Source: Kineosporia corallincola
Lineage (GTDB): Bacteria > Actinomycetota > Actinomycetes > Actinomycetales > Kineosporiaceae
Direction: 5' to 3'
NCBI RefSeq assembly: GCF_018499875.1
Contig: NZ_JAHBAY010000018.1
Span: 62,001 to 126,000 of the forward strand
Length of the DNA: 64,000 nt
Shown: piece by piece, positions 22,840-38,635 of the stretch
Position numbering within the stretch: position 1 is the first letter of the stretch
How the letters are laid out: each line of letters starts with the position of its first letter
The notes under the pieces: generated by a model
What the model saw: the letters and a program-made list of their open reading frames with translations, nothing else
Told to the model about the DNA's origin: nothing
Database searches by the model: none
Translations under genes and position numbers: made by a program

Positions 22840-24178
22840 CGGCGTCGGCCTCCGCCCCGACCGGCGGCACGGTGGCGGCCCACGGCGACGCCTGGCGGCG
22901 CTCCTGCTCGGCGTCCAGCCAGTGCTGCTGCCAGTTCTCGTTCGCGGCCAGGGTGTCGACCGCGAACGGGCCGGTGTAGGTGGCCGCCTCGGTCTCGTCG
23001 AGCGGGTGGGCCGGGATCTTCCCGCCGGCGGCGTGCGCCTCGATCGCCTTCAGCAGCAGGCGCCGGTTCGCCGTCACCGCGCGGTCGGACACGCCGAGTC
23101 GCTCCACGGTGCGGTCCTGGATCGGGCCCATGCTCTCGACCGCCCACTGGTCGTGGACGTTGATGTCGAGACCCATGCCGGTGTAGGTGACGTTCTTCTG
23201 CTCGACCGGGTCGAAACCCCAGTTGTTGGAACGGTTCCGCAACGGCCGGTAGTCCGGCAGGCTGACCTCGGCCAGACGCTGCCGCAGCAGCGTCTCCTTG
23301 TCGGTGGTCTCGGCGTAGTCGTACCAGATCATGTACCAGTAGTGATGGTGGTCGTCGATCGGCACGTGCCACTGGGTGAACACCTTGGTCTTGCCGAACG
23401 GCACCACGAAGGCGTTGGGGAACAGCAGGTTCGTCACCCGCACGTGCTTGATCTGCTCGGTCAGCTGACGCACCGCGAACACCCGCAGGCCGTGCTCGGC
23501 GCTCTCCACCTCGATGTCCGGCCGGAAGTTGTCGCCCACCAGCTTGGACAGCTTCTTCCCGGTGCCCTCGACCTCCTCGCTGAACTGCTGACCATAGGTC
23601 TCGCGCGGGTCCTCCTCGATGAACCGGTGCAGGAAGGACACGTGGCTCGGGTCGATGCCGCCCTCGACGCCCTGGAGCCAGTTGCACTCCCACAGGCCCT
23701 TGAAGGCGAAGGTGTACTCGTCCGGCGCGGTGAAGCAGTCGTAGTCGGGGAACGGGGGCGGGTCACCGGCGCCGAGGTAGGCGAAGATGATGCCGTTCTT
23801 CTCCCGGCAGGGGTAGCTGTCGATGCGGATCTTGTCGGCGAACCGGCTGTGCTCGGGTTCGGCCGGCTGATCGACGCACTGGCCCTGGGAGTCGTAGAGC
23901 CAGCCGTGGTAGAGGCACCGCAGTCCGCCGTCCTCCAGCCGCCCGTACGACAGATCGACGCCGCGGTGCGCGCAGAACCGGCTGATCAGACCCCAGGCTC
24001 CGCCGGGCTTGCGGAAGAGCACCAGGTCCTCGCCGAACATCCGCACGGCCTTGACCGGCTTCTCCTGCGACATCTCCGAGACCAGGGCCGCCGGTTGCCA
24101 GTACGCCCGCATCAGCCCACCGAGCGGGGTACCCGGCCCGGTCTGGGTCAGCTTCTCGTTGTCCTCGCGCTTGAGCAC
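22832..24178 (-). CDS. Rieske-type oxygenase alpha subunit
   Basis: 448-residue Rieske non-heme iron oxygenase of the phthalate-dioxygenase-like, alpha-only class. The 2Fe-2S ligands are C69-x-H71 and C88-x2-H91 (CAHRG and CLYHGW). The mononuclear iron site is in GIDPSHVSFLHRF. No beta subunit is present in the window. The GTG at 24178 follows GGAGGAG. The reductase at 25138 is the likely electron donor. Its promoter holds operator pair A (24208-24234). Relatives hydroxylate aromatic rings or oxidise N-methyl and quaternary amines. The island points to an amine substrate. Confidence 0.92.
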   Translation of the reverse strand: MLKREDNEKLTQTGPGTPLGGLMRAYWQPAALVSEMSQEKPVKAVRMFGEDLVLFRKPGGAWGLISRFCAHRGVDLSYGRLEDGGLRCLYHGWLYDSQGQCVDQPAEPEHSRFADKIRIDSYPCREKNGIIFAYLGAGDPPPFPDYDCFTAPDEYTFAFKGLWECNWLQGVEGGIDPSHVSFLHRFIEEDPRETYGQQFSEEVEGTGKKLSKLVGDNFRPDIEVESAEHGLRVFAVRQLTEQIKHVRVTNLLFPNAFVVPFGKTKVFTQWHVPIDDHHHYWYMIWYDYAETTDKETLLRQRLAEVSLPDYRPLRNRSNNWGFDPVEQKNVTYTGMGLDINVHDQWAVESMGPIQDRTVERLGVSDRAVTANRRLLLKAIEAHAAGGKIPAHPLDETEAATYTGPFAVDTLAANENWQQHWLDAEQERRQASPWAATVPPVGAEADADA

Positions 24179-24207: not shown

Positions 24208-24234
24208 GGATCCCAACTTAGCATTGATGGATCC
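24208..24234. promoter_or_regulatory. Operator pair A (GGATCC x2, 21 bp apart)
   Basis: TGGATCCCA occurs twice, with GGATCC at 24208-24213 and 24229-24234. On the minus strand a -10-like TAAGTT lies between the copies. The pair is 30-56 bp before the Rieske start and also faces the GntR regulator gene, consistent with repression and autoregulation. Confidence 0.75.
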
Positions 24235-24367
24235 CATTCAATAGAATTCATAGCCAGAACTGCTGGAACGGGGTCCATCTGTGGGTGTTCTGCTAGCGTT
24301 TTGCTTCACAGGCGCCGCAGCAGGCGCGCAACCGCGCCGGACCGTGCGCGAGGGGAGAACCGCGATC

Positions 24368-25087
24368 ATGGTGGACACCACCGGCCTGGCCGGCACGGAG
24401 AAATCGGGCAATGCCCTGGTGGACGACGTCGCGGCCCGCATCCGCGAACGCATCATGTCGGGCGAGATCCCGATCGGCGCGCAGCTGCGACAGGCCGAGC
24501 TGGCCAGCGACTTCGGCGTGAGCCGTACCCCGATCCGCGAGGCCCTGCGCCAGTTGCAGAGCGGTGGCCTGATCGAGGTGCTGCCCAATCGCGGTGCCGT
24601 GGTGCGGGTTCCGGCGCCGTGGGAGGTCCGGGAGGCCTACGAGGTGCGCGCCGAGCTGGAGTCCCTGGCCGCCACCCGCGCGGTCAGCCGCATCACCCAG
24701 GCCGAGCTGGAAGAGCTACGCCAGGCGAATCAGTCGATGTACGACCACTCCTCGGCCCTGTCCCGGGGCGAGAACCCGGCCTCGGCCGACCGCCCGGCGA
24801 ACGACGTGTTCCACACCCTGATCCTCACCATCGCCGCGAACGCCCGCCTGGCCAAGGCGGTGAACGACATCAACGAGACCTTCCCGCGCAACGTCTCGTC
24901 GGCGCTGATCGTCAACGACGCCCGGCAGCGCGAGGAGAACCACCGCGAGCACGAGCGCATCATCGCCGCCATGGTCGCGGGCGACACCGAGACCGCCGGC
25001 CGGGAGATGCGCGAGCACGTCCTCAAGGCCGGCGAGCACCTGGCGCACTGGTACGAGCGCCGATCGTCCACCGTTTTCCGGGGTTGA
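24368..25087 (+). CDS. GntR family transcriptional regulator, FCD subfamily
   Basis: 239 residues from the ATG at 24368 (GGGGAG 10 nt upstream). An N-terminal winged helix-turn-helix, with ASDFGVSRTPIREALRQLQ as recognition helix region (near 50-68) and GLIEVLPNRGAVV as wing, precedes a C-terminal helical FCD ligand domain (from about 90; metal-binding His and Asp residues such as DVFHTLI and EHERII). FCD regulators usually repress catabolic genes until a small carboxylate or amine-derived ligand binds. It lies divergent to the Rieske gene and is the only regulator in the island, so it is the natural binder of the five GGATCC pairs. Confidence 0.92.
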   Translation: MVDTTGLAGTEKSGNALVDDVAARIRERIMSGEIPIGAQLRQAELASDFGVSRTPIREALRQLQSGGLIEVLPNRGAVVRVPAPWEVREAYEVRAELESLAATRAVSRITQAELEELRQANQSMYDHSSALSRGENPASADRPANDVFHTLILTIAANARLAKAVNDINETFPRNVSSALIVNDARQREENHREHERIIAAMVAGDTETAGREMREHVLKAGEHLAHWYERRSSTVFRG

Positions 25088-25137
25088 CCGGTCGGAAGGC
25101 GGCTCACCGCAACAATTTTCCCGACGGCCGCCGGTGC

Positions 25138-26076
25138 TCAGAGGTCGAGCACCAGCAGGCCCGAGGCCCTCGACACACAGACCATCATGCAGTCGCCCGC
25201 CTCCTTCTCGGTCCGGGTCAGCACATGGTCACGGTGCTCGACAGTTCCTGACACCACCCGGGTTTCGCAGGTCCCGCAGATTCCCTCCTCACAGTCGCGC
25301 AGGATGTCGGCCCCCGCCTCACCGGTGAGCACGTCGAGCAGCGTCCGGTCCGCGTCCACCCTGAGTTCCCGCCCGGACGTGGCCAGTCGCACGGTGAACG
25401 CACCGGTCTCGGCCTCCTCGTCGGTGGCCGGGGCACTGAAGTACTCCTGTCGCAGGTCGTCGCCGAGGCCCCGGGCCTCCAGAACCTCCCGCACGCCGTC
25501 CATCAGGCGGGCCGGGCCGCAGGTGTACACGAGCGTCCCCGGCTCGACCGGGCTCAGGAGATCGGCGAGCGGGGGACGCCCGGGGGCATCGGCGGGCAGC
25601 AGCCGCACCCGGTCGCCGTACCCGGCCAGACGCTCCCGGAAGGGCATGGTCGCGAGCGTCCGGCCGAAGTAGAGCAGCTCCCAGGCGGCACCGTCCGCCG
25701 CGGCCTTCTCCAGCATCGGCAGCAGCGGGGTGATGCCGATGCCGCCGGCCACGAAGAGGTAGCGCCCGGAGTCCTCGAGGACGAAATGGTTGCGCGGGCC
25801 GCGGATTTGCACCGTCCAGCCCGGGCGCAGCACGTCATGGATCCAGCTGGATCCGCCGCTGCCCGTGGCCTCGTGCCGCACCGCGATCGTCAGCGACCCG
25901 GACTGCCCACCGCAGACCGAGAACTGGCGGGTGGTGCCGTCGCCGACCGTCACGTCGATGTGGGCGCCGGGCTCCCAGACCACGGCGGACCCCCGCGGTT
26001 CCAGTTCGACGAGCATGACCCCGTCCGCCACGATGTGCATGCCCCGCACGAAATACGGGGAGAACGTGTCGTCCAT
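25138..26076 (-). CDS. Phthalate dioxygenase reductase-type ferredoxin reductase
   Basis: 312-residue electron-transfer flavoprotein that passes electrons from NAD(P)H through FMN to a C-terminal plant-type 2Fe-2S centre and on to the Rieske oxygenase. Flavin binding is seen in RQFSVCG, the NAD site in VAGGIGITPLLPML (109-122), and the cluster ligands in DCEEGICGTCETRV with a fourth Cys (C262, C267, C270, C300). ATG at 26076 with AAGGA upstream. It lies after a strong terminator behind the amine oxidase gene, so it may have a weaker supply of transcript or a promoter of its own. Confidence 0.92.
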   Translation of the reverse strand: MDDTFSPYFVRGMHIVADGVMLVELEPRGSAVVWEPGAHIDVTVGDGTTRQFSVCGGQSGSLTIAVRHEATGSGGSSWIHDVLRPGWTVQIRGPRNHFVLEDSGRYLFVAGGIGITPLLPMLEKAAADGAAWELLYFGRTLATMPFRERLAGYGDRVRLLPADAPGRPPLADLLSPVEPGTLVYTCGPARLMDGVREVLEARGLGDDLRQEYFSAPATDEEAETGAFTVRLATSGRELRVDADRTLLDVLTGEAGADILRDCEEGICGTCETRVVSGTVEHRDHVLTRTEKEAGDCMMVCVSRASGLLVLDL

Positions 26077-26121
26077 GTCGAGTCCTTCGTGGGTTCCGGG
26101 CAGAACGTTCCGGGCAGAACA

Positions 26122-26162
26122 GGGGACGCCCGCCCGCTCGGGTCGAGCGGGCGGGCGTCCCC
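26122..26162 (-). terminator. Strong hairpin between amine oxidase and reductase genes
   Basis: Perfect 18-bp stem (26122-26139 with 26145-26162) and a 5-nt loop, 11 bp beyond the copper amine oxidase stop. It lies within a co-directional gene set, so it may reduce rather than abolish expression of the reductase gene. Confidence 0.75.
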
Positions 26163-26172
26163 CGGCTGTACG

Positions 26173-28074
26173 TCAGTGGCAGCAGGCGTCCCCGCCGTCG
26201 GAGCTGCTGTGGCTCATCGGGGCCGGCAGGTCGAGCGAGGGGTTGCGGTCGAAGAAGCCGTCCGGCTCCAGGCGCATGCCCAGGCGGTGCACCGGCATGA
26301 TCGGCCACTCCTCCGGACGCGGCACGTGGTGCACACCGATGACCGGCCAGAGCACGAGCTCGGCGCCGTCGAGCGACCGGTCGGCCTGCTGCCAGGCCTG
26401 CACCCCGTCGGCCCCCAGGTCGGCCTGGTTCGGGTACTCGCCGGCGATGAAGCGCTCGCTGCCGTCGAACGGCGTGGCCCACAGGTGCTGCGCGACGAAG
26501 GGGGCCTTGCGCTCGACCACACTGCCCGGCTTGGCGAAGAGCCTGGCGGTGTTCTGGATCGACAGCCGGTAGGCGGTCTTGTCGCCGAACCGGTTCACCG
26601 TGTCGTCGCTCTCGACCAGCCAGTACGTGGAGGTGGCCGGATTCGACCGGCGGGCGGCCTGTTTCTCGGTGGCGAGCTGGGTGCGCACCATCTTGCAGGC
26701 GTTGCCGTAGGGGTTGAGCTCCTCGTCCTCCTCGACCTCGGCGTGCACCTCGTACAGCCGGTTGACCGGGCCGTCGACGCCCATGTCGAGCCGCATGCCG
26801 AAGTAGTGCTGGTGGTTCGGGGCCTGCACGTTGGGGCTGACCATCCGCCCGTAGGTGGGGTTCTCGCCGTCGGCGATGCCGGACACCGACATCACCCCGG
26901 TCAGCTTGATCTCCAGCTCGATCATGCCGTCCTGGTACAGCGACCAGTAGAAGCCGTAGTCGTAGTTGGCCACGGTGGCGAAGAACGAGACCACCAGACG
27001 CCGGGCGCGGCGCACGTCGGCCTCACCGGTGCGGGTGTTCACGTGCTTCCAGAGGATCGAGTGGTCCTCCTCGTGCAGGCACACCGCGTTCTTGATGGTG
27101 CGGGCGTCACCGTGACCGTTGACCACCGCGGCATCGAAATACCGGATCTCGCCGAGGCAGTCGCAGCCCAGTTCGAGCGAGGCGGTGAGCGGGCCGGCGC
27201 CGTACTCGCCCCAGTCGAAGAAGTTCTTGCGGTAGGCCGTGGGGTCCGGGTCGAGGTACGGCACGTACATCTCGTTCACCGCAGCGCGTTTCATGATCGG
27301 GCGCCCGGCGTACTCGATGTCGTGCAGCACCATGCCCTCGCGGTGCGTGAAGCCGATCCGGAAGGCCCAGTTCTGCCAGGTGACCAGCTGCCCGTCGATG
27401 CCGAAACCGGGCCCCTGCGGCTGGATGATCTCCAGCGGCGCGACCTCCCGGTCGGGGCCCCAGGTGCCGGACCGGTAGTTGCCGGTCTCCGAGGCCATCG
27501 GCAGCACGCCGTGGTCCTCGATCGCGATGACCTCCAGCGTCTCCAGGTCGACGATCGGCACCAGGCCGGCCACCGGACGGGCGTAGCCGTTGTCGTCCTC
27601 GGTCTCCCGGTGCCACACGGTGCCCCACGAAAGGCGGCGGTCCTCATAGCCTTCCGGCTCGAACCCGGTGATCGACTCGGGGTCGACCCAGACCAGCGAG
27701 ACGTCGTGGATGCCACGCTTGGCCAGCGCGTCCTTCAGGCCCTGGTCCTCCCGGCAGGCCGCCGCCACCATCCGGGCCTCCTCGCTGGAGACGCCGGGAC
27801 GCTTGGCGTCCACGTCGCGCCAGCTGGTGATCGAGGCCTCGCGGTCGGTGCCGGCGGTCCAGGCGGCCACCTCCCAGGCGGCGTGGGCGTCCGGGTTCAT
27901 CACCACGGTGCGCACCGGACGGCCCTGGCCGGGGGCCAGTGCCCGGGCCAGCGCCTCGTCCACGGCGATGCCCCAGAACCGCGGCCTGTCGCCGATCCGC
28001 TCGTCGGCGCGCACCAGGGCGATCACCGTGGCGATCTCGTCCTCGGTCAGGGGGTCGTTCCAGTGGCGGGTCAC
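26173..28074 (-). CDS. Copper-containing primary-amine oxidase (TPQ enzyme)
   Basis: 633-residue copper amine oxidase, converting a primary amine plus O2 to an aldehyde, ammonia and H2O2. The topaquinone precursor is Tyr 371 in the consensus VANYDYGFYW. A copper-ligand-like His-x-His is seen in NHQHYFGMRLDMGVDG, and the catalytic-base region precedes in FDAAVVNGHGD. Length is normal for the family. GTG at 28074 with AAGGAG 5 nt upstream. The C-terminus ends in a Cys/His pair (GGDACCH). The aldehyde made here is the natural substrate for the aldehyde dehydrogenase at 32864. Agmatine, putrescine and aromatic amines are candidate substrates. Confidence 0.95.
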   Translation of the reverse strand: MTRHWNDPLTEDEIATVIALVRADERIGDRPRFWGIAVDEALARALAPGQGRPVRTVVMNPDAHAAWEVAAWTAGTDREASITSWRDVDAKRPGVSSEEARMVAAACREDQGLKDALAKRGIHDVSLVWVDPESITGFEPEGYEDRRLSWGTVWHRETEDDNGYARPVAGLVPIVDLETLEVIAIEDHGVLPMASETGNYRSGTWGPDREVAPLEIIQPQGPGFGIDGQLVTWQNWAFRIGFTHREGMVLHDIEYAGRPIMKRAAVNEMYVPYLDPDPTAYRKNFFDWGEYGAGPLTASLELGCDCLGEIRYFDAAVVNGHGDARTIKNAVCLHEEDHSILWKHVNTRTGEADVRRARRLVVSFFATVANYDYGFYWSLYQDGMIELEIKLTGVMSVSGIADGENPTYGRMVSPNVQAPNHQHYFGMRLDMGVDGPVNRLYEVHAEVEEDEELNPYGNACKMVRTQLATEKQAARRSNPATSTYWLVESDDTVNRFGDKTAYRLSIQNTARLFAKPGSVVERKAPFVAQHLWATPFDGSERFIAGEYPNQADLGADGVQAWQQADRSLDGAELVLWPVIGVHHVPRPEEWPIMPVHRLGMRLEPDGFFDRNPSLDLPAPMSHSSSDGGDACCH

Positions 28075-28114
28075 TCGGTCTCCTTCGAAATCATGGACGG
28101 CGAAAACCTCTACC

Positions 28115-29206
28115 TCAGGTCGTGATCCGGCGCTGTACGCCGATGAAATCCAGGTCGGGCCGGGGCCGGCCGAGCACCAGGTCGGCCACCGCCTCCCCGA
28201 CGGCGGGGCCGAACTTGAAGCCGTGCCCGGAACAGGCCGCCGCCACGGTCACGTTCGGCGCCCAGGGCAGGGTACCGATCACGAACCGCTTGTCGGCGGT
28301 CATCGTGTACAGGCAGGCGGCCACCTCGGTCACCTCCGGGGCGATGCCGGGCACGTAGGCGGTCATCAGGCCGGTCAGCTCGTCGATCTCGGCCTGTGAC
28401 GGCGCGGCGACCGGGACCTCCGGGTCCCAGACCGGCCCGGCGTCGACGCCGGCCTTGAACCCGTTGCCGGCCGCGTCGGGAATGCCGAATACCAGGCCCT
28501 CGGGCCGGTCGACGGAGAAACAGCCGAGCCGGGGCGGCATTCCGTCGGCCTGGCCGGCGGCCAGGGTGACGGTGACGATGCGCCAGACCTCGAAGAGGTG
28601 GGCCAGCTCGGGCACCAGCTGCCCGGACCACGACCCGGCCGTCAGAACCAGCCGGTTGCAGCGAATCTCGCGACGGTCGGTGGTGACCACACAGCCGTCG
28701 CCCTCCGGGCGCCAGGACAGCACGTTCTCGCCGAACACCAGTTCGGCGCCGTCGGCCCGGGCCCCGGCCCGGGCGACCTCCAGGGCCGTCGACGCCTCCA
28801 GCACGCCGGCGTTCGGGTCGTGGACCGCGCCGTAGCCGTCTGGCACCCGGAATCCCGGCATCAGGTCGGACATCTCGGCCGGATCGGTCACGGCCCGGCA
28901 GTCCCGCCCCTGCATCGAGGCGGCGCCACGATGTGCGTACAGGCCACCGGTGCGGTGAATCAGCGTGCGACCGCCGGCCGCCTCCCAGCGCGCCCAGCCG
29001 TCGAAGGCCCGCTCCACGAACGGATTCCAGGCCGGGTTCGGGTAGGCCCGGCGAATCATCCGGGTGCGCCCGTGCGAGGACCCGCGCCCGTGCCCCTCCT
29101 CGAAGCGGTCCAGGCCGAGCACGTCCACCCCCTGCCGGGCGAGCTCGAAAACGGTTGCGGAACCGTGCACGCCGAGACCGGCCACGAGCACATCGACGTC
29201 CACCAT
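28115..29206 (-). CDS. Sarcosine oxidase/N-methyltryptophan oxidase-like flavoprotein
   Basis: 363-residue FAD-dependent amine oxidase of the monomeric sarcosine oxidase family, oxidising secondary amines. The Rossmann motif LVAGLGVHGSATVFELA opens the protein, GSSHGRTRMIRRAY is the second flavin-binding signature, and C298 in VAACLYTMTADKRF is the conserved site of covalent FAD attachment. The C-terminal GHGFKFGPAVGEAVADL completes the FAD fold. GGAGG is 9 nt upstream of the ATG, within the end of the preceding class V PLP enzyme gene. It probably removes an N-alkyl group or oxidises an imino acid in the pathway. Confidence 0.9.
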   Translation of the reverse strand: MVDVDVLVAGLGVHGSATVFELARQGVDVLGLDRFEEGHGRGSSHGRTRMIRRAYPNPAWNPFVERAFDGWARWEAAGGRTLIHRTGGLYAHRGAASMQGRDCRAVTDPAEMSDLMPGFRVPDGYGAVHDPNAGVLEASTALEVARAGARADGAELVFGENVLSWRPEGDGCVVTTDRREIRCNRLVLTAGSWSGQLVPELAHLFEVWRIVTVTLAAGQADGMPPRLGCFSVDRPEGLVFGIPDAAGNGFKAGVDAGPVWDPEVPVAAPSQAEIDELTGLMTAYVPGIAPEVTEVAACLYTMTADKRFVIGTLPWAPNVTVAAACSGHGFKFGPAVGEAVADLVLGRPRPDLDFIGVQRRITT

Positions 29207-29210
29207 TGAC

Positions 29211-30446
29211 TCAGACCTCCTGGGCGATCAGGGTGACCGCATCGATCAGCGCCGACATGTCCGACCCGTCGGTGTAGACGTGCGGCGAGGCCCGCACCAC
29301 GGCGTCCACACCCCGGGCCCCGAGGTCCCACTGCGCGTGCGAGGCGGGCACCGACACGGTGCGCACGTCGTGCGCGGCCAGCCGCTCGTTCACCTGCCGC
29401 GCGGGCTTCCCGTCGACGGTGAAGGTCACGATCGCCGACGGCGAGGCCGGCGGGTCCTGCACGGTGACCGCCGGGATCTCGCCCAGCGTCTCCCGCAGCC
29501 CGGCGGCCATCGTCACGAGATGGTCCTCGGTGCGCGCGGTCCCGAGCTCCAGCGCCTCGGCCAGCGCCACGCCCAGCCCGATCCGGCCGGCGATCGACGC
29601 CTCCCAGGTCTCGAACCGGCGCGCACCGTCTTTCAGCTCCCATTTCCGGGACGACGTCCAGACCGCGCCGCGCACGTCCGGCGCCGTCGGTGCCAGCGAG
29701 CTCACCAGATCCGCTCCGACATAGGCGAAACCGGTGCCGCGCGGGGCACGCAGGAACTTGCGGCCGGTGGTGACCAGCGCGTCGCAGCCGATCCGGGTCA
29801 CGTCCAGCGCCAGCTGGCCCACCGACTGGGTCGCGTCGAGCACGTACCGGGCACCGTAACGCCGTGCCAGTGCGCCGATCTCGGCGACCGGCTCGACCAG
29901 GCCGGAGGAGGTGGGGATGTGGGCCACGCAGAGGATCGCCGGGGCGCCGCCGGCCAGTTCCAGGTCCAGGGCCTCCAGGTCCACCGCACCGTCCGGGCCG
30001 TTCGGCACCACGACCAGCTCGACGTCGTGCTCACGGCCCAGGCTCATCAGGTGCAGCGCGTGGCTGACGTAGGTGGACCGGCTGACCAGCAGCCGGTGGC
30101 CGGTGCCGAGCCGCAGCGCGTCGATGATCGTGCGCAGGCCGGTGGAAGCGCTGTCGAACAGGGCGATCTCGCCCGGATCGGCGTTCAGCAGCCGGGCCGC
30201 GTCGCGGTAGGCGTCCTCGATCCGGTCGGCGACCTGATGGGCGGCCTCGTACCCGCCGATCTGCTCCTCCAGCCGCAGGTGGTCGACCACCGACTGGACG
30301 ACCGGGGCCGAGGGCAGCGCGGCCCCCGCGGCGTTGAAGTGGTGGGCGACCGCGGTGCCCGGCGTGCGCGCCCGCTCGGCGGCCACGTCGACGGGTACGG
30401 CGCGCTCCTGGAGCACAGCCGGTCCCGCATCGAGAGAGCTCTCCAC
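29211..30446 (-). CDS. Class V PLP-dependent enzyme (aminotransferase/desulfurase fold)
   Basis: 411 residues from the GTG at 30446 (GAGG 8 nt upstream). The open frame extends to 30500, but that start lies inside operator pair B. PLP-binding features are present: STGLRTIIDALRLG, YVLDATQSVGQLALDV with the conserved Asp and Gln, and the Schiff-base Lys in VTTGRKFLRAPRGTGFAYV. No catalytic Cys loop typical of IscS/SufS is evident, so an aminotransferase or lyase role fits better. First gene of the operon continuing with the two amine oxidases. Confidence 0.85.
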   Translation of the reverse strand: MESSLDAGPAVLQERAVPVDVAAERARTPGTAVAHHFNAAGAALPSAPVVQSVVDHLRLEEQIGGYEAAHQVADRIEDAYRDAARLLNADPGEIALFDSASTGLRTIIDALRLGTGHRLLVSRSTYVSHALHLMSLGREHDVELVVVPNGPDGAVDLEALDLELAGGAPAILCVAHIPTSSGLVEPVAEIGALARRYGARYVLDATQSVGQLALDVTRIGCDALVTTGRKFLRAPRGTGFAYVGADLVSSLAPTAPDVRGAVWTSSRKWELKDGARRFETWEASIAGRIGLGVALAEALELGTARTEDHLVTMAAGLRETLGEIPAVTVQDPPASPSAIVTFTVDGKPARQVNERLAAHDVRTVSVPASHAQWDLGARGVDAVVRASPHVYTDGSDMSALIDAVTLIAQEV

Positions 30447-30471
30447 ACCAACCGCCTCTAGTCGAAACTTC

Positions 30472-30498
30472 GGATCCGAAAATAACACGATTGGATCC
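30472..30498. promoter_or_regulatory. Operator pair B (GGATCC x2, 21 bp apart)
   Basis: GGATCC at 30472-30477, within the 12-bp palindrome TTCGGATCCGAA, and at 30493-30498 within TTGGATCCAC. On the minus strand a -10-like TTATTT lies between them. The pair ends 26 bp before the class V enzyme start at 30446. Confidence 0.75.
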
Positions 30499-30544
30499 AC
30501 TGTAGTACGGGCGAAAGCCTCTAGCGTCCACTCGTAGGTGATGT

Positions 30545-30571
30545 GGATACGATCCTATGGTGAGTGGATAC
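30545..30571. promoter_or_regulatory. Operator pair C (variant GGATAC x2, 21 bp apart)
   Basis: TGGATACGATC occurs twice, at 30544-30554 and 30565-30575, again 21 bp apart, with one change from the GGATCC core. A -10-like TATGGT lies between the copies on the plus strand. The pair is 21-47 bp before the MFS start at 30592. Confidence 0.65.
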
Positions 30572-30591
30572 GATCTGAACAGGTGTCGTTG

Positions 30592-31776
30592 ATGCGCCGT
30601 CCCGCGACCACGGTCACGTTCTGGCTCGTCTTCGGTGCGTCGACGCTGGAGAACGCCACCTTCAACGGCACCTCACCGGTCATCGCCCGGTTCGTCACCG
30701 GCTCCTTCGGGGCGAGCCCGGCGGCGGCCGGGGTGATCGCGGCCCTCGCACCCCTCAGCTCGCTGGTCTGGCAGCCGATCGCCGGGCACGCCGCCGACCG
30801 CTACGGATACCGCCTGGTCGGCGTCGCGGGCGCCGTGGCCGCGCTGGCCGGTTTTCTGCTCACCCTGCTGACCACGGTCGGCCCGCAGACACTCGCACTG
30901 GCCGGGCTGGGGCGGATCCTGATCGGCGGGGGCGGAGCCAGCGTGGCCACCGTCGCGACCGCCTGGGTGGTGGCCACGTCACCGCGGGCCAGCCGGGGTC
31001 AGGCCCTGAGCATCTTCGGGCTGAGCGTCTGGATCGCCTTCGCCCTCGGCCCGGTGATCGGCGAGAACGTCTACCAGACGAGCGGATTCGCGGCGGTCTG
31101 GCTGGTGTTCGCGGCGATGACGGCGGCCATGCTGTTCTGCGTGGCGTTCGCCGTGGAACCGGTGCGCCCGGAACCGGCCGGCGCGATGACCCTCTCCGGG
31201 TTGCGCGAGGTGGTGTCGACGGTCAGCCGCCCCGGTGTGGTCGCGGCGGCGGCCTGGGCCGGGCAGGCGGTGATCACCACCTATCTGGTGGTGCTGCTGG
31301 AGAGCCGGGGCCTGGCGACGGACGGGTGGTTCGGCGCCGCCAGCCTTTTCCCGGTGTTCGCCGTCTGCCTGATCGCCTCCCGGGTGCTGTTCAGCCGGCT
31401 GACCGACACCACTCCCCCACGCCCGATCGCGATCGGCGGCCTGCTCGGGATCACCGCCGGGCTGCTGATCCTCAGCGCCACCTCGTCATTCTGGACGGCC
31501 GCGCTGGGTGCCGCCCTGCTCGGGTTCGTCTACGCCCCGATGTATCCGGCCCTGACCCTGCTGGCCAGCGACGGCCTGCCCGCCGACCACCGGGCGGTGG
31601 GGCTCGGGGTGTTCAGTTCGTTCACCGCCCTGGGCATGGCCGCCGGCCAGTTCATGGGTGGCTTCGTGGACGAGTGGCTGGGCCTGGGCTGGGTTTTCGT
31701 CGTGACGGCGGCCCTCCAGCTCCTGGCCCTCCCGGCTCTGCCGCCCAGCGCCCGGACCGCACCCCCGGCCCCCTGA
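30592..31776 (+). CDS. MFS transporter, probable amine/substrate uptake
   Basis: 394 residues with twelve hydrophobic segments and the MFS loop motif GHAADRYGYRLVG after helix 2. I start it at the ATG 30592 (AGGTG about 7 nt upstream), because the longer frame from 30538 would place operator pair C inside the coding region. It is divergent from the amine oxidase operon and controlled by the same operator type, so uptake of the catabolic substrate is the likely job. Export of a toxic intermediate is an alternative. Confidence 0.85.
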   Translation: MRRPATTVTFWLVFGASTLENATFNGTSPVIARFVTGSFGASPAAAGVIAALAPLSSLVWQPIAGHAADRYGYRLVGVAGAVAALAGFLLTLLTTVGPQTLALAGLGRILIGGGGASVATVATAWVVATSPRASRGQALSIFGLSVWIAFALGPVIGENVYQTSGFAAVWLVFAAMTAAMLFCVAFAVEPVRPEPAGAMTLSGLREVVSTVSRPGVVAAAAWAGQAVITTYLVVLLESRGLATDGWFGAASLFPVFAVCLIASRVLFSRLTDTTPPRPIAIGGLLGITAGLLILSATSSFWTAALGAALLGFVYAPMYPALTLLASDGLPADHRAVGLGVFSSFTALGMAAGQFMGGFVDEWLGLGWVFVVTAALQLLALPALPPSARTAPPAP

Positions 31777-31821
31777 CGACCGGACGCGCACCGCACCGTC
31801 CCGCATCGTCATGCACTGGAG

Positions 31822-32697
31822 TCACGAAGCTCCACTCCACGTCGTCCGGAGGCCGTCCGGGCCGATGATCGTGCCCGGAGCCAGATCCGGCAGCAGGCAG
31901 GCCCGCAGAACCGGCCCGGCCGTGTCCAGGTCTGACGGATTCGGCGAGGTGGCCGGCCTTGGCCGAGTGGCCGGCGTCGGCGGCACGACCGGGGTCGGCG
32001 AGGGGTCCGGCGTCGGCGAGGGGTCCGGCGAGGGGTCCGGGTTCGGCGAGGGGTGCGGATGGCCCGGATCGGCCAGGACCGCGGTGATACCCATGCTGGC
32101 CTGGCGGGCCGTGCCGTCCAGCACCCAGGCGAGGTCGGCCGACCCGGCGCCCTCCGGTGTCGCCTGCCGGACCGCGCCGGGGACGACATGCACGACCCGG
32201 CCCGGCGCATGGGTCGCCAGCGTGGGCAGCAACGCCTCGGTGAGCAGGCGCGGGCCGAGATACTCGAGCACGAGGGACGTCTGGACGGTCCCGAAATTGT
32301 TCACCAGCAGGTGCAGTTCACCGGTCATGGGCAGCCAGGCGCCCAGCTCGTGCACCGCGTCCAGCGACGACAGATCGGTCTCGACGAAGTCGTAGCGCTC
32401 GCCGGCACCGTCGGCCAGGAGCTGCCTGAGCGCCCGCACGCCCGCCTCCTCGTCACCGTCCACCACGGTCACGGACCAGCCCCGACGTCCCAGTTCCAGA
32501 GCCGTGGCAAGACCCGGCCCGGCCGCGATCCCGGCGACGACCGCCCGTCTGCTCTCCCGCCCGAAGCCTTCGAGCACAGGCTCCTCGGCCACAGTCTTCT
32601 CGGCCACAGTCTTCTCGGACGCTGGCTTCCCGGTCACGGGCTCCTCGGTCACGGGCTTCCCGGTCACGGGTTCCTCGGTCACGGGCTCCTCGGTCAT
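31822..32697 (-). CDS. Atypical SDR-like protein with repeat-rich ends
   Basis: 291 residues. The core resembles a short-chain dehydrogenase: VVAGIAAGPGLATALELGRRG as nucleotide loop, ETDLSSLDAV and LHLLVNNFGTV as the acidic and NNxG motifs. The usual Ser and Tyr-x3-Lys active site is not visible after VVHVVPGAVRQAT, so catalysis is doubtful. The N-terminus is a run of EEPVTGKP-type repeats encoded by 15-bp tandem units (32582-32697). A Pro-Asp-Ser-rich insert (PNPDPSPDPSP) interrupts the C-terminal part. The true start may lie after the N-terminal repeats. It may be a decaying or structural relative. Confidence 0.6.
   Translation of the reverse strand: MTEEPVTEEPVTGKPVTEEPVTGKPASEKTVAEKTVAEEPVLEGFGRESRRAVVAGIAAGPGLATALELGRRGWSVTVVDGDEEAGVRALRQLLADGAGERYDFVETDLSSLDAVHELGAWLPMTGELHLLVNNFGTVQTSLVLEYLGPRLLTEALLPTLATHAPGRVVHVVPGAVRQATPEGAGSADLAWVLDGTARQASMGITAVLADPGHPHPSPNPDPSPDPSPTPDPSPTPVVPPTPATRPRPATSPNPSDLDTAGPVLRACLLPDLAPGTIIGPDGLRTTWSGAS
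31975..32050. repeat. Tandem repeats in the SDR-like gene
   Basis: Units built on GGCGAGGGGTCCGG recur several times between 31995 and 32050, encoding the Pro-Asp-Ser-Pro insert. The copies differ slightly in length, as expected for replication slippage. Confidence 0.6.
32582..32697. repeat. 15-bp tandem repeats at the 5' end of the SDR-like gene
   Basis: About seven imperfect 15-bp units (GTCACGGGCTCCTCG and variants) encode alternating EEPVT and GKPVT pentapeptides immediately after the annotated start. Confidence 0.65.
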
Positions 32698-32765
32698 GGG
32701 CCGAGTCTGCCGCCCCGGCAGGCTCCCCCACGACTCGCCCTCTCCGGCCCGGCGGCGAGGAACCC

Positions 32766-32814
32766 TTTCGTTTTTGACACCACCATGGGCGCGTTGACGG
32801 TGTCAAAAACGAAA
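32766..32814 (-). terminator. Terminator after the aldehyde dehydrogenase gene
   Basis: Perfect 16-bp stem (TTTCGTTTTTGACACC at 32766-32781 with its complement at 32799-32814), 17-nt loop, unusually A/T-rich for the window. It lies 50 bp past the ALDH stop and before the SDR-like gene. Confidence 0.75.
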
Positions 32815-32863
32815 AGCATCTCCCACGCGGAGGTCGGTGACGACGCCCGGCACAGCGGAAGCC

Positions 32864-34324
32864 TCAGAGGGCGATGACCACGGCCTTGGTCTCGGTGAAG
32901 CCGAGCAGTGCCTCGTCGCCCAGGTCGCGGCCCAGGCCGGAGTCCTTGACCCCGCCGAAGCCGAGGGCCGGGTCGAACACGTTGTAGGTGTTCACCCAGA
33001 TCGTGCCGGCGTCGATCGCGGCGGCCACGCGGTGGGCGCGGCGCAGGTCGTTGGTCCAGACTCCGCCGGCCAGGCCGTAGGTGGAGTCGTTGGCGATGGC
33101 GATCGCCTCGTCCTCGTCCTCGAAACCGAGCACGCCGACCACCGGGCCGAAGATCTCCTCGCGGGCGATCACCATGTCGTTGCGCACGCCGGTGAACAGG
33201 GTGGGCTCGACGTAATAGCCCGGCCGGTCCGGGGTCCCGCCGCCGCTCACCAGCTCGGCGCCGTCGGCCTTCCCCTTCTCGATGTAGCCGAGCACCTGCT
33301 CGCGCTGCTCCTGCGAGACCAGCGGGCCGACCGAGACACCGCCGGCCAGGCCGTCTCCCAGCGGCACCCTGGCGACCGCGGCGGCGAGCCGTTCCGTCAT
33401 CTCCGGCAGGATCGAGTTCTGCACCAGCAGACGGCTTCCCGCGGTGCACATCTGGCCGGAGTGGCCGAACGACGCGCGCATGGCGGTGGTCACCGCGGCG
33501 TCCAGGTCGGCGTCGGCGAACACGATGTTGGCGCTCTTGCCGCCCAGTTCGAGCGTCACCCGCTTGAACGTCTCCGCCGCGGTGCGGCCCACGATGCGGC
33601 CCACCGACGTGCTGCCGGTGAACGACACCTTGGCCACGCCCGGGTGCTCGACCAGCGCGGCGCCCACCCGCCCGTCACCGGTGAGCACGCTGACCACACC
33701 GTCGGGCACGCCCGCCTCACGCATGATCGCGGCCAGCCGGAGCATGGTCAGCGGGGTCTGCTCGGCCGGCTTGACCACGATCGAGCAGCCCGCGGCCAGG
33801 GCCGGGGCGATCTTGAAGGCGCCGGTCATGATCGGGAAGTTCCAGGGCAGGATCAGCGCCGCCACCCCGACCGGGTTCAGCGTGGTGTACACGTGGTGCC
33901 CGTCGCCGATCGGCACGGTGGCGCCGGCCAACCGCGACGGGGCGCCCGCGTAGTGCCGGAAAGTCGCTGCGGCCTGGGCGGTGTCGGCCCGCGAGCGCTC
34001 GATCGGCTTGCCGTTGTCGCGGGTCTCGAGGATCGCCAGGTCTTCGAGGGCGTCCTCGATCAGGTCGGCGATCCGGTTCATGATGCGGGCGCGCTCGAGC
34101 GGGGCCAGGCCCGTCCAGGCCCGGTCCTTCAGGGCTTTCACGCCGGCCCGCACAGCGGCGTCGACATCGGCGGTGGACGCCTGGGGCACCTGGGTGAGTC
34201 GTTCCTCGGTGGCGGGGTCGAGGACGCCGAACAGCTCTCGCCCGTCCGCCACCCACTCCCCGGCCAGCAGGAACGGGGTGATGTCGGGCAGCGTGGGCAG
34301 CCCTTCGCGCAGCGTCTGGGACAC
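32864..34324 (-). CDS. NAD(P)-dependent aldehyde dehydrogenase
   Basis: 486-residue aldehyde dehydrogenase oxidising the aldehyde made by amine oxidase to an acid. The catalytic Glu is in VTLELGGKSANIVF, the nucleophilic Cys in GHSGQMCTAGSRLLV, and the cofactor loop in SFTGSTSVGR. I use the GTG at 34324 (AGGAG 6 nt upstream). The frame continues to 34765 but only through operator pair D and unlikely sequence. The protein resembles betaine/gamma-aminobutyraldehyde dehydrogenases in overall pattern. The substrate is inferred from the neighbouring amine oxidases and the shared operators. Confidence 0.93.
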   Translation of the reverse strand: MSQTLREGLPTLPDITPFLLAGEWVADGRELFGVLDPATEERLTQVPQASTADVDAAVRAGVKALKDRAWTGLAPLERARIMNRIADLIEDALEDLAILETRDNGKPIERSRADTAQAAATFRHYAGAPSRLAGATVPIGDGHHVYTTLNPVGVAALILPWNFPIMTGAFKIAPALAAGCSIVVKPAEQTPLTMLRLAAIMREAGVPDGVVSVLTGDGRVGAALVEHPGVAKVSFTGSTSVGRIVGRTAAETFKRVTLELGGKSANIVFADADLDAAVTTAMRASFGHSGQMCTAGSRLLVQNSILPEMTERLAAAVARVPLGDGLAGGVSVGPLVSQEQREQVLGYIEKGKADGAELVSGGGTPDRPGYYVEPTLFTGVRNDMVIAREEIFGPVVGVLGFEDEDEAIAIANDSTYGLAGGVWTNDLRRAHRVAAAIDAGTIWVNTYNVFDPALGFGGVKDSGLGRDLGDEALLGFTETKAVVIAL

Positions 34325-34357
34325 CTGGTTCTCCTTGCGATCGACCCGTTCCGATTT

Positions 34358-34384
34358 GGATCCAAAATCTACACTGATGGATCC
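34358..34384. promoter_or_regulatory. Operator pair D (GGATCC x2, 21 bp apart)
   Basis: GGATCC at 34358-34363, within the perfect palindrome TTTGGATCCAAA, and at 34379-34384. On the minus strand TAGATT lies between the copies as a -10 candidate. The pair is 34-60 bp before the ALDH start and could also affect the divergent protease gene. Confidence 0.75.
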
Positions 34385-34553
34385 TACTCCGGAAGGCTGC
34401 CTCGCGACCGGCTGTCCGCAGCCCTCACGGCGCCCTCCGGAAGTGCACCCAGGTCTGCCCTTTCGGTACTCGAAAAAGATCGCCGTCGATCGGGCTGCTG
34501 TTAGCATTTCCGGGCAAAAACGACACGCGCCTCTCTCTCCTGGACAGGAAAAC

Positions 34554-37500
34554 GTGATCAGACAAGCCCTTTCGCGACGCCACCGCATTGCAGCGGTCGT
34601 CGCGGGCAGCCTGGCCGCGGCCGTAGCCGTAGCCGCTGGTGTCACCCTGACGACCGGTGACTCCTCCCCGAGCACCACGACGACATCTGCTGCGTCACCC
34701 GACGTCTCCACCGGGATCCAGCAGGCCGACTGGGACGCGTCCGACCAGGCCGGAAAGCCGATCAAGGGCAGCTACGTCGTCCGGTTCTCCGACAGCGCCG
34801 ACCTTCGTACGCCGGCCCAGCTGAAGAAGGCCGCCCGGCACCTGACGGACGAGGTGGGCGGCCGGGTGACCACCGTCTACAGCACCGCGCTGCACGGCTT
34901 CGCCGTGAAGATGAACGCCCAGCAGGCCAAGAGGATGGCAGCGCAGCCGCGGGTGAAGTCGGTGACCCAGGACCTCACGGTCGCCTCCCTGGCCACCGGC
35001 GACACCGATCCGGACAGCGCCGCCCACCAGACCGACGCCTCCTGGAACCTGGACCGGTCCGACCAGGCGAGCCTGCCGCTGAGCGGTACCTACGACTACG
35101 ACTCCAACGACGGCGCCGGCGTGGACATCTACGTCCTGGACAGCGGCCTGCGCATCACCCACGAGTCGTTCGGCGGCCGGGCCGCCCTCAGCGGCCCGAA
35201 CCCGGACGACGCCGAGGACTGCGGGGGTCACGGCACCGCGGTCGGCGGCGTGGCTGCCGGTGACACCTACGGGGTGGCGAGGAAGGCCAACATTCTGGGC
35301 ATCCGGGTGATCGGGTGCGACAACCTGGCGGCCGCGACCGACGCTCTCGCCGCTCTCGACTGGATCGACGCGAACGCCGCCGGCCCTTCCGTGATCAACG
35401 CCAGCTGGGGCACCGGCGCCTACGCGCCGCTGGACGAGGCGGTCCAGGCGACCATCGCCTCCGGCGTCGTCTTCGTCGTGGCGGCCGGGAACAGTGCCGA
35501 CGACGCCTGCACCCGTTCGCCGGCGCGGGTCCCCGAGGCCATCACGGTCGGTGCCACCGACCCGGACGACAACCGGTCCAGCTACTCGTCCTACGGTTCG
35601 TGCCTCGACCTGTTCGCACCCGGCAACGACGTCCAGACCGCCTCGTACACCAGTGACACTGCGTCCGAGACCACCGGAGGGACCTCGTTCTCGGCCCCGC
35701 TGGTGGCCGGGGCCGCCGCCGTCTACCTGTCCGACCACCCGTCAGCCACCCCGGCCCAGGTGAGCCAGGCCCTGACGGACTGCGCCGTGCCCGGCATCAT
35801 CGCCGACGCCAAGGCCGGTTCGCCCAACCTGCTGATGCAGAGCCGGTGCCACTCGGGCCTGGTCCTGAGCAACCCGGGCCGGCAGAAGACGACGTTCGGC
35901 CAGCAGGTGTCCCTGCCGGTCACCGCCTCCGGCACCAGCGGAACGGTCACGTTCAAGGCCACCGGCCTGCCCGACGGGATCACCATGAACACCTCCACCG
36001 GAAAGATCACCGGCGCCGTCACCTCGTCCGCGGCCGCGACCAACCTGGTCACGATCACGGCCACCGACAGCGCGGGAAGCACCACCGAGACGTTCCAGTG
36101 GGATGTCGTCGTGGGGCTCGGCTACGTGAAGGGGGTCGGCGGGTACTGCCTGGACGACGACAACTCGCAGACCGCCGAGGGCACCAAGATCCAGATCCAT
36201 CTGTGCAACCAGAACTGGCTGCTGCCGATCGACGGCACCATCCGCTTCTACCAACGTGACGTGACCAAGTGCGTGAGTGCCGCCGGCGCCGACTCCGCGG
36301 ACGGTCGGCTGATCGTGCTGAACAGTTGTGACGACGGGGACGACCAGGTCTGGAAGCAGGATTCCGCCGGGCAGCTGGTGAACCCGGCGACCGGTCAATG
36401 CCTCACCGCCCCGCGCGCCGGCGAGGCGGTCCAGCTCACCCTGGCCGCCTGCACCGGGGCCGACGGCCAGAAGTGGGAACTGCCCTCCGGCATGCCGACG
36501 ACGATCACCTTCACCAATCCGGGCAGCCAGGTGACCCACCGCGGCACCGTGGTGAGCCGGCGGATCCGGGCCTCGAGCCTCGACACCACGGCGACGTTCA
36601 CCTACACGGCCACCGGCCTGCCGGCCGGCCTCTCCATCGACAAGAACTCCGGCCTGGTCAGCGGCACGGTGACGACGCACCAGGACGCCAGTACCGCGAC
36701 GGTCACGGCGACCGGCAGCAACGGTGCCACCGGCAGTGTCTCGTTCACCTGGAAGGTGGCCGACGGACAGATCGCCGGCGCCGCCTCGTGGTGCGCGGAC
36801 GACTACTACGGCAAGACCGACGAGGACAACCCGGTCGTGGTGTGGCCGTGCGACAAAAGCACCGACACCCAGGCGTGGACCGTTCGCGACGACGGCACCT
36901 TCGAGGTCAAGGGGGTCTGCCTGACCGTCGACGGCACCGCCGAGGCGGGCGCCGCGGTCGGGGTGGGTGACTGCTCCGGCGCATCCACCTGGGCCCAGAA
37001 GGGCGACGCCACCGTGGAGTCAGGCTCGGGTCTGTGCCTGAACGCGCCCGCCTTCACCACGGCGACCCAGTTCACCCTGGCGACCTGCGACGGCAGCACC
37101 CGCCAGTGGTGGCACCTGCCCACCCCCGACGGTGACACCTCGGTCCCGACGCCGACCTCCACCGGTGAGCCGACCACCAGCCCGACGTCGACCTCTACCC
37201 CGACGTCCACGGGCGACCCGACGTCCACCCCGACGTCCACCCCGACATCCACCAGCGACCCGACCGGCACCGGGACGTCGTCGCCGACGTCCACCGCGCC
37301 GGCGGAGGGTGGCCCGATCGCCACCCCGGACGCCAGCTGGTGCGCAGACGTCCGCGACGTGGTCTGGCTGTGGGACTGCAACGGTTCTGCCGCACAAAAA
37401 TTCGTTCTCGACGACGACGGGCGCCTGAGCCGGTCCGACGCCTGTCTGACGCCCTCGCCGGACAGCGACGGCCGGGTGGCCATGGCCGGCTGCGACGCCG

Positions 37501-37661
37501 ACGACGAGTCGCAGGTCTGGGAGCAGGCCGCGGACGGAACGGTGGTCAACACTGCATCGGGTCAGTGCCTGACGGCTTCCGAGTTCGCCTACGGGGCGTC
37601 GTTCGGCCTCAAGGCGTGCACCGCTGCCACCGAGCAGCTGTGGACGTTGCCCGCAGCCTGA
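34554..37661 (+). CDS. Secreted S8 subtilisin-like protease with lectin-like domains
   Basis: 1035-residue secreted protease from the GTG at 34554 (AGGA 4 nt upstream). A signal peptide is followed by an I9-type propeptide (SYVVRFSDSADL), then the subtilisin domain with Asp 196 (YVLDSGLRITH), His 226 (CGGHGTAVGG) and Ser 378 (GGTSFSAPLV). After about residue 440 come two He_PIG/Ig-like segments (FKATGLPDGITMNTSTGKI and a second copy) alternating with ricin-type beta-trefoil-like blocks rich in Cys and Trp. A Thr/Ser/Pro linker (37135-37310) precedes the last lectin-like block. It probably binds polysaccharide while degrading protein outside the cell. It is not an obvious part of amine catabolism. 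Confidence 0.92.
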   Translation: MIRQALSRRHRIAAVVAGSLAAAVAVAAGVTLTTGDSSPSTTTTSAASPDVSTGIQQADWDASDQAGKPIKGSYVVRFSDSADLRTPAQLKKAARHLTDEVGGRVTTVYSTALHGFAVKMNAQQAKRMAAQPRVKSVTQDLTVASLATGDTDPDSAAHQTDASWNLDRSDQASLPLSGTYDYDSNDGAGVDIYVLDSGLRITHESFGGRAALSGPNPDDAEDCGGHGTAVGGVAAGDTYGVARKANILGIRVIGCDNLAAATDALAALDWIDANAAGPSVINASWGTGAYAPLDEAVQATIASGVVFVVAAGNSADDACTRSPARVPEAITVGATDPDDNRSSYSSYGSCLDLFAPGNDVQTASYTSDTASETTGGTSFSAPLVAGAAAVYLSDHPSATPAQVSQALTDCAVPGIIADAKAGSPNLLMQSRCHSGLVLSNPGRQKTTFGQQVSLPVTASGTSGTVTFKATGLPDGITMNTSTGKITGAVTSSAAATNLVTITATDSAGSTTETFQWDVVVGLGYVKGVGGYCLDDDNSQTAEGTKIQIHLCNQNWLLPIDGTIRFYQRDVTKCVSAAGADSADGRLIVLNSCDDGDDQVWKQDSAGQLVNPATGQCLTAPRAGEAVQLTLAACTGADGQKWELPSGMPTTITFTNPGSQVTHRGTVVSRRIRASSLDTTATFTYTATGLPAGLSIDKNSGLVSGTVTTHQDASTATVTATGSNGATGSVSFTWKVADGQIAGAASWCADDYYGKTDEDNPVVVWPCDKSTDTQAWTVRDDGTFEVKGVCLTVDGTAEAGAAVGVGDCSGASTWAQKGDATVESGSGLCLNAPAFTTATQFTLATCDGSTRQWWHLPTPDGDTSVPTPTSTGEPTTSPTSTSTPTSTGDPTSTPTSTPTSTSDPTGTGTSSPTSTAPAEGGPIATPDASWCADVRDVVWLWDCNGSAAQKFVLDDDGRLSRSDACLTPSPDSDGRVAMAGCDADDESQVWEQAADGTVVNTASGQCLTASEFAYGASFGLKACTAATEQLWTLPAA
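37140..37310. repeat. Low-complexity Thr/Ser/Pro linker repeat
   Basis: Repeated ACGTCCACC/CCGACGTCC-type units encode a PTSTPTST linker between the lectin-like blocks of the S8 protease. It is likely glycosylated or flexible in the mature protein. Confidence 0.6.
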
Positions 37662-37675
37662 GCGCATCCGCGTCG

Positions 37676-37710
37676 AGGGCCCCGGACGTGCACGTCACAT
37701 CCGGGGCCCT
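37676..37710 (+). terminator. Terminator after the S8 protease gene
   Basis: Perfect 11-bp stem AGGGCCCCGGA / TCCGGGGCCCT with a 13-nt loop, 14 bp after the stop codon and directly before operator pair E. Confidence 0.75.
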
Positions 37711-37717
37711 ATTCACT

Positions 37718-37744
37718 GGATCCTTCACCGGCTAAGTTGGATCC
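37718..37744. promoter_or_regulatory. Operator pair E (GGATCC x2, 21 bp apart)
   Basis: GGATCC at 37718-37723 and 37739-37744, the second within TTGGATCCA. A -10-like TAAGTT at 37733-37738 abuts the second copy. The same hexamer is used in pair A. The pair is 28-54 bp before the first DUF1989 gene. Confidence 0.75.
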
Positions 37745-37771: not shown

Positions 37772-38635
37772 GTGGATACAGCAGCGGCCACCGGCTCGCA
37801 TGACACCCGTAACACCGCCAGCGTGCTGGCGGCCCGCGCCGATGCCCGGGCCCAGGGCGACCAGCAGTCCGCGTGGATGCCCTACCTGCCCGCGTCGAGC
37901 ACGCCGTTCCCGCCCGAGGACGTCGACCCGGCGCTCCTGGTCTGGGCGGAAACCGTTGCCCCGGGCGGGTACACGCACAAGGTGCTGGCCCGCGGCAGCC
38001 AGGTCCGGCTGGACGACCCGACCGGTGACGCCTGCGCCCACGTTCTGCTCTACAACGCCCTGGAGCCGGTGGAGCGGCTGAACGTGGCCGACACCCGCAA
38101 GATCCCCTGGCAGGCCTACCTTTCCGACGACCACCCGCTGCTGTCCAACGACGGCCGGGTGCTGGCCACCGTCACCCGCGACACCTCGGGCCGCCACGAC
38201 ACGTTCTGCGGCACCAGCAGCGACGCCTGGAACCTGCACAAGTACGGCGACGCGCGGCCGGAGGGCCCCTCGCCGTCCGGCATGGCGCAGTTCACCCTCG
38301 CCGCCGCGAAACACGGCCTGGGGCCGCGTGATCTGCCCCCCGCGGTGTCGTTCTTCCAGGGTGTGCACGTCGCCGCCGACGGCGGCTTCGAGTGGCTGGG
38401 CTCGGCCGGGCCGGCGTCGTCCGTCGACCTGATCGCCGAGCTGCCGCTGATCGTGCTGGTCGCGAACGTGGCCCATCCTCTCGACCCGCGCGAGAACTAC
38501 CAGGTCGGACCGCTGCGCGTGCATGCCTGGCGGAGCACCCCGACCGGTCCGGGTGACACCGCCTACGAGGCCTCGCCGGAACGCCGGCGGGCCTATCTGA
38601 ACACCGTCGACTACGTTTCGGCCCGGGGGTTGTGA
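37772..38635 (+). CDS. DUF1989 protein, carboxyguanidine deiminase subunit type (UAAP1-like)
   Basis: 287 residues. DUF1989 proteins were long labelled urea carboxylase-associated; two together are now known as carboxyguanidine deiminase (CgdAB), which turns carboxyguanidine into allophanate and ammonia. The conserved blocks are seen: RGSQVRLDDPTGDACAHVLL near 70-90 and RHDTFCGTSSDAWN near 145-158 with a conserved Cys, and VSFFQGVHVAADGGFEW. GTG start with GAGGG just upstream. First gene of a three-gene coupled operon under operator pair E. No guanidine carboxylase is in the window, so the carboxylated substrate must come from elsewhere. Confidence 0.85.
   Translation: MDTAAATGSHDTRNTASVLAARADARAQGDQQSAWMPYLPASSTPFPPEDVDPALLVWAETVAPGGYTHKVLARGSQVRLDDPTGDACAHVLLYNALEPVERLNVADTRKIPWQAYLSDDHPLLSNDGRVLATVTRDTSGRHDTFCGTSSDAWNLHKYGDARPEGPSPSGMAQFTLAAAKHGLGPRDLPPAVSFFQGVHVAADGGFEWLGSAGPASSVDLIAELPLIVLVANVAHPLDPRENYQVGPLRVHAWRSTPTGPGDTAYEASPERRRAYLNTVDYVSARGL

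Follow-up and report, generated by a model that had tools for sequence, protein, structure and literature searches.

Paired GGATMC sites as predicted operators of a VanR-group GntR/FCD regulator in a gene island of Kineosporia corallincola

Paired sites and the genes they precede

The window, by which we mean the whole 64,000-nucleotide stretch analysed, is positions 62,001 to 126,000 (forward strand) of contig NZ_JAHBAY010000018.1 of Kineosporia corallincola (NCBI RefSeq assembly GCF_018499875.1), and it contains an island of genes with five paired sites that are predicted here to be operators of the GntR/FCD regulator encoded among them. As an earlier note on this DNA had claimed, pairs lie at 24208, 30472, 30545, 34358 and 37718 with the second copy 21 bp, correctly equated with two helical turns, after the first; all five match GGATMC-N15-GGATMC with zero mismatches. 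Four pairs are GGATCC/GGATCC palindromes; the fifth (30545/30566), marked as a variant in the earlier note, is GGATAC/GGATAC and itself no palindrome. Single GGATCC words occur at 29 places in the window against 27.2 expected from shuffles and are thus not over-represented, which makes the pairing the signal.

Predicted operator 1 (GGATCC-N15-GGATCC, 24208..24234, minus strand) lies before the gene for a Rieske oxygenase alpha subunit (22832..24178, minus strand; Rieske and LigXa_C domains) and is shared with the divergent gene of the GntR/FCD regulator, the proposed binder (24368..25087, plus strand). Predicted operator 2 (30472..30498, minus strand) precedes the gene for a class V pyridoxal-phosphate (PLP) enzyme of EgtE/cysteine-desulfurase type (29211..30446, minus strand; domain and family matches), and predicted operator 3 (30545..30571, plus strand), the GGATAC variant, precedes an MFS transporter gene (30592..31776, plus strand; domain match). 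Predicted operators 4 (34358..34384, minus strand) and 5 (37718..37744, plus strand) stand before genes for an aldehyde dehydrogenase (ALDH; 32864..34324, minus strand; domain match) and UAAP1 (37772..38635, plus strand; match over the curated cut-off), respectively. With start codons picked from reading frames and Shine-Dalgarno-like sequence, the pairs are separated from the starts of the Rieske, class V enzyme, MFS, ALDH and UAAP1 genes by 29, 25, 20, 33 and 27 bases, respectively, and the GntR start codon is 133 bases from the first pair. These 20-33 intervening bases fit the 21-34 bp given earlier, a count that runs up to the start itself; the chosen start codons agree with the pairs, short of the confirmation that had been read into them. 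The remaining island genes trail the pair-led genes on the same strands, and one pair per presumed operon is a plausible arrangement.

Conservation of the pairs

The whole-genome search proposed in the earlier note found the pattern at 11 places, the five of the island plus six outside it. Three of the six look like real sites: L002, 18 bases ahead of a RidA/YjgF-family gene (family assigned via its relative), L005, 64 bases ahead of a gene for a family-5 solute-binding protein (SBP5), and L001, ahead of a small membrane-protein gene. The other three (L003, L004 and L006) were matched to no gene and may be chance. From these positions the regulon is predicted to extend past the island to the ridA-type and SBP5 genes.

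A GntR ortholog was found in four of five other genomes of the genus (88-96% identity), and the pairs are kept before orthologous genes in these relatives, a check that had also been proposed. The pair between the GntR and Rieske genes and the pair before SBP5 are present in all four (G002, G003, G004 and G005), the pair before ALDH in G002, G005 and Kineosporia rhizophila (L059), that before the PLP-enzyme gene in G002 and the same K. rhizophila locus, and that before UAAP1 in G002 and G004. In G002, G003 and G004 pairs also stand, less exactly placed, before the membrane-protein gene; at L140 and L142 the match to this protein is weak (47% and 62%), and the position of the pair does not suit the start projected for it. 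G004 (L141) and G005 (L146) each have one pair place without a match to the queried genes. The fifth genome of the genus, G001, has no GntR ortholog (best match 41%), and its eight pattern places fall on eight contigs with mostly GC-rich spacers. None of 23 distant GntR-type loci fetched from the genus contains a pair. In two Kineosporia relatives a paralog of the regulator with 55-58% identity (L149, G004:C3; L150, G002:C19) has a paired site overlapping its own projected start, and cross-talk between the two proteins is possible.

A scan of named actinobacterial genomes gave 64 loci, of which L120 and L121 were excluded as distant and without a pair, leaving 62 loci (52-96% identity, 1.24 Mb) in which the cores GGATMC or GKATCC were counted. 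Cores spaced by 21 bp form 113 pairs in 61 of the 62 loci, and the lone locus without one (L093) has a pair at 22 bp, a spacing found 16 times in all. Apart from 21 and 22 bp, spacings between 12 and 65 bp yield 1.5 pairs on average, with a maximum of 9 at 42 bp, a count that takes in triple arrays, and ten simulated sets gave 0, 1, 0, 2, 0, 0, 0, 0, 0 and 1 pairs versus the 113 observed. Measured from the projected start of a homolog of an island, ridA or SBP5 gene, 99 of the 113 fall within the stretch from 330 bp upstream to 40 bp downstream, with 14 outside this range, and the distance from pair end to projected start codon has a median of 27 bp (middle half 17-51). The half-site consensus over the loci is ATTGGATCCAAT, also written TTGGATCCAA, a short palindrome that may correspond to the palindromic operators of about 10 bp of the VanR group, and both flanks of each core match. 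A single pair can sit between divergent genes. Five Curtobacterium loci (L074, L076, L081, L083 and L087) have triple cores at 21+21 bp before ridA-type genes.

Taken together, the comparison indicates that the pairs are conserved regulatory sites. An origin by chance, or as a genome-wide repeat built on GGATCC, would explain why genomes contain a few pairs with GC-rich spacers; it is rejected by the spacing spectrum with its peak at 21 bp, the simulations, the positions kept before orthologous genes and the lack of any excess of single GGATCC in the window, and we regard it as barely credible.

The GntR/FCD regulator as candidate binder

The identification of the GntR/FCD protein as binder, offered in the earlier note, is strongly supported by which genomes hold the pairs. 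An even sample of 197 genomes from the class was searched. Orthologs were called at an expectation value (E) up to 1e-60 for GntR and up to 1e-120 for the Rieske protein, and pairs with the stricter pattern GGATCCW-N13-WGGATCC. The three genomes with a GntR ortholog hold 3, 3 and 4 strict pairs; among the 194 without it, ten hold one strict pair each and none holds more, so that where the protein is missing the pairs appear single and chance-like. A fourth ortholog-bearing genome, from a larger class sample, also has a pair beside its GntR ortholog.

The same three GntR-positive genomes have the Rieske ortholog as well, and the 197-genome sample thus cannot separate the two proteins. One Rieske ortholog match (L152, G118:C234:112290-113627) contains one TGA. 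Three Rathayibacter and two Demequina genomes have the GntR protein and the pairs with no Rieske match at E up to 1e-50; in the search of seven genomes to which they belong, G001 has neither and one Pseudonocardia genome has a match. The Caballeronia insecticola plasmid (L128:1-3717) carries a Rieske gene 50% identical to that of the island, beside a glutamine-synthetase-family gene and a different GntR gene (32% identical), and no pair was found in this Rieske/GntR locus or elsewhere on the plasmid. By this locus, the glutamine-synthetase/Rieske gene pair occurs beyond Actinomycetota as well. A tie of the paired sites to the Rieske pathway in place of the regulator is rejected by these genomes, with pairs present where the Rieske protein is missing (Rathayibacter and Demequina) and missing where it is present (Caballeronia), and the pairs go with the regulator.

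The regulator has an N-terminal winged-helix GntR domain (PF00392) and a C-terminal FCD domain (PF07729), both over the Pfam cut-offs. Its closest solved structures by sequence are PmiR of Pseudomonas aeruginosa (PDB 7xp0 and 7xp1) and the VanR-group protein Atu1419 of Agrobacterium fabrum (PDB 6z74). In a Foldseek search with a predicted model (mean predicted local distance difference test score 87.1), PmiR, Atu1419, a Brucella GntR, Lar/MouR, McbR and TM0439 lead by E-value, DhdR (group unchecked) stands at rank 22, and NanR, LldR and FadR stand at ranks 40-42, with modest template-modelling scores (TM-scores) of 0.5-0.8. PmiR is thus the top PDB match by both measures, although its identity in the structural alignment is 28-29%. 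With group names for the compared structures as in PMC7797058, the ranking of the model places the fold nearer to VanR-group than to FadR-group structures. Among 42 sequences H149, H195 and H217 are invariant and N145 occurs in at least 90%; these four residues align with the three histidines and the asparagine of 6z74, and a metal site of three histidines and an asparagine or aspartate is described for some VanR-group members (PMC7797058). All 42 sequences also share S52, R53, T54, P55 and R57, which line up with the Atu1419 recognition helix (helix as in PMC7797058). The regulator is very probably a VanR-group, FCD-type GntR repressor, a known kind of protein.

The half-site ATTGGATCCAAT matches the operator VanO of the proteobacterial vanillate repressor VanR, and the arrangement of a GntR/FCD regulator beside a Rieske oxygenase is likewise that of VanR of Caulobacter crescentus and its relatives. 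The sequence GGATCC is the BamHI site. VanO contains a BamHI site (PMC4920640), and a vanillate-induced Caulobacter construct contains two ATTGGATCCAAT-type sites in a part that is read as the vanillate promoter, 39 bp apart versus the 21 bp found here (PMC6538847). Beside proteobacterial VanR-like GntR genes such sites occur singly or in twos: one ATTGGATCCAAT site at a Sphingomonas GntR/Rieske gene pair, two cores 21 bp apart at a Sphingobium pair with a vanA-like promoter, and two sites 63 bp apart at an Acinetobacter pair. Seven of eight further plasmid GntR loci (L127-L134) lack the TTGGATCC-type words searched for; Thermus L131 has one isolated word of this type about 2.5 kb from the GntR start, and Azospirillum L127 has TGTATACA sites instead.

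The island system nevertheless differs from VanR proper, which has vanAB vanillate O-demethylase genes next to it. In pairwise comparison the regulator is 29-32% identical to GntR proteins beside vanA-like genes (32% to the Sphingomonas and 29% to the Acinetobacter protein). The Rieske enzyme belongs to a different branch, with 29% identity to its Sphingomonas counterpart over 183 residues, and the neighbouring amine-oxidase and glutamine-synthetase-like genes suggest amine catabolism, not vanillate. Atu1419 resembles the island protein as a VanR-group FCD protein with a 10-bp palindrome, which overlaps the -10 box at two of its genes, but its operator is ATGTATACAT, single or 190 bp apart and bound by a tetramer with looping, and the sections consulted describe no 21-bp pair (PMC7797058). 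In the GGATAC/GTATCC variants one half of the site reads GTAT in place of GGAT, and GTAT is also the half-site in the operator ATGTATACAT of Atu1419 (PMC7797058). Of the earlier claim of a new GntR regulon, the gene set appears to be new, and the operator is of the known VanR type. No description of the regulon or pathway was found in the open-access literature searched.

Mode of control and the predicted amine pathway

The reading we favor, at a probability of about 0.9, is that the island's GntR/FCD protein, acting as a VanR-group repressor, uses the pairs as operators; it would place two dimers on each site and be released by a molecule of the pathway. Each half, a ATTGGATCCAAT-type short palindrome, would bind one GntR dimer, and the 21-bp step would set the two dimers on the same face of the helix. 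Side by side they may mask the promoter and the start region of each operon's transcript and so shut out RNA polymerase; a small pathway molecule, probably an amine or its breakdown product, would release the repressor. A tetramer might also bridge the two halves; the Atu1419 tetramer has two DNA sites about 10 nm apart (PMC7797058), a distance that by our estimate would exceed 21 bp of straight DNA.

Another VanR-group GntR of the same genome could own the pairs, leaving the island GntR with a different job. The operator code does seem to be shared within the group, relatives at only 29-32% identity having the same half-site, and the genome has 29 GntR-type matches; however, the next-best of these by score shares just 35% identity with the regulator over some 200 residues, and ortholog-less genomes have no multiple pairs despite their GntR-type candidates (103 in G001 by a loose search), which makes this owner improbable. 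Slightly less likely still is that the island GntR binds the pairs as an activator. The median distance of 27 bp from pair end to projected start codon would be typical of repressors, and the related Atu1419 (PMC7797058) and VanR (PMC13154678) are repressors. A role of the pairs as promoter elements for an alternative sigma factor, with GGATCC as boxes like those at -35 and -10, would suit their fixed spacing and closeness to start codons. It is very hard to reconcile with the matching flanks on both sides of each core, the triple arrays at 21+21 bp, the occurrence of one pair between divergent genes and a half-site equal to a known repressor operator.

Several observations weigh against control of these genes by the GntR protein through the pairs, or limit the evidence for it. 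The 62 loci were fetched by the GntR protein and include many close relatives, so that their counts are not independent; the class-wide pattern count is based on three positives only, and the protein occurs in only 4 of the 394 genomes of the larger class sample. In twelve of the 62 loci the 400 bp before the GntR start hold no pair at 21 or 22 bp, which means that self-control is not universal; each of these loci has a 21-bp pair in another place. The PLP-enzyme gene of G005 has no pair of its own and follows ALDH there, and the ridA pair is present in only one of the four genus relatives (G003), weaker sites being outside the search. A strand-specific -10 box between the cores was sought in 86 spacers and not established: the -10-like word TANNNT at offsets 11-15 occurs in 31 of 86 on the forward and 32 of 86 on the reverse strand (shuffle mean 13.7, largest 23), and this equal enrichment does not locate the promoter.

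The other genes of the island are those of a glutamine-synthetase-like ligase (21274..22839, minus strand), a ferredoxin-type oxidoreductase that is presumed to be the reductase partner (25138..26076, minus strand), a primary-amine oxidase of copper type (26173..28074, minus strand; match over the curated cut-off), a flavin (FAD) amine oxidase of N-methyltryptophan/sarcosine oxidase type (28115..29206, minus strand), a short-chain dehydrogenase (31822..32697, minus strand; domain match), UAAP2 (38632..39324, plus strand; match over the curated cut-off) and an allophanate hydrolase of AtzF type (39321..41024, plus strand), with domain and family matches where no other basis is given. Presumably UAAP1 and UAAP2 are DUF1989 proteins, which we take to be the carboxyguanidine deiminase subunits. 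A urea-carboxylase-family protein above its family cut-off is encoded outside the window, on contig C1 of the same genome.

Conserved neighbors across the loci are homologs of the glutamine-synthetase-like ligase, Rieske oxygenase, reductase, copper amine oxidase, FAD amine oxidase, PLP enzyme, ALDH, RidA and SBP5. Further neighbors belong to the amidohydrolase, isochorismatase-type amidase, gamma-glutamyltransferase, amidase, phosphotriesterase, GMC oxidoreductase and creatininase families, each named from one representative per cluster of frames from a simple gene caller that yields some spurious ones. In aniline degradation a glutamine-synthetase-like ligase and then a Rieske enzyme act in sequence, and the two may do so here. 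A wider proposal, which we hold tentatively and at somewhat less than even odds, is that one operator code and its two-turn double site have persisted across phyla, in Actinomycetota and in a sphingomonad, through divergence of the protein to about 30% identity and a change of the controlled pathway; in Actinomycetota the genes would then serve an undescribed route that begins with gamma-glutamylation of an amine by the glutamine-synthetase-like ligase, continues with attack by the Rieske oxygenase and ends with amine oxidases, ALDH and RidA. If so, the pairs could serve to find every gene of that route. They would be a DNA sign for the genes of a widespread amine-catabolism route, also far from the island, and the same operator in two phyla for proteins about 30% identical makes the DNA code of VanR-group regulators testable. 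The natural operator pairs would also be usable for vanillate-type switches, with caution over cross-talk.

Two regions of secreted-looking proteins were noted from their translations. Between the ALDH and UAAP1 operons, at about 34555-37661, lies a gene for a subtilase-like secreted protease with repeat and lectin-like regions, and at 41124-43189 two adjacent genes encode secreted-looking proteins with glycine/aspartate-rich repeats that resemble calcium-binding repeats of RTX type.

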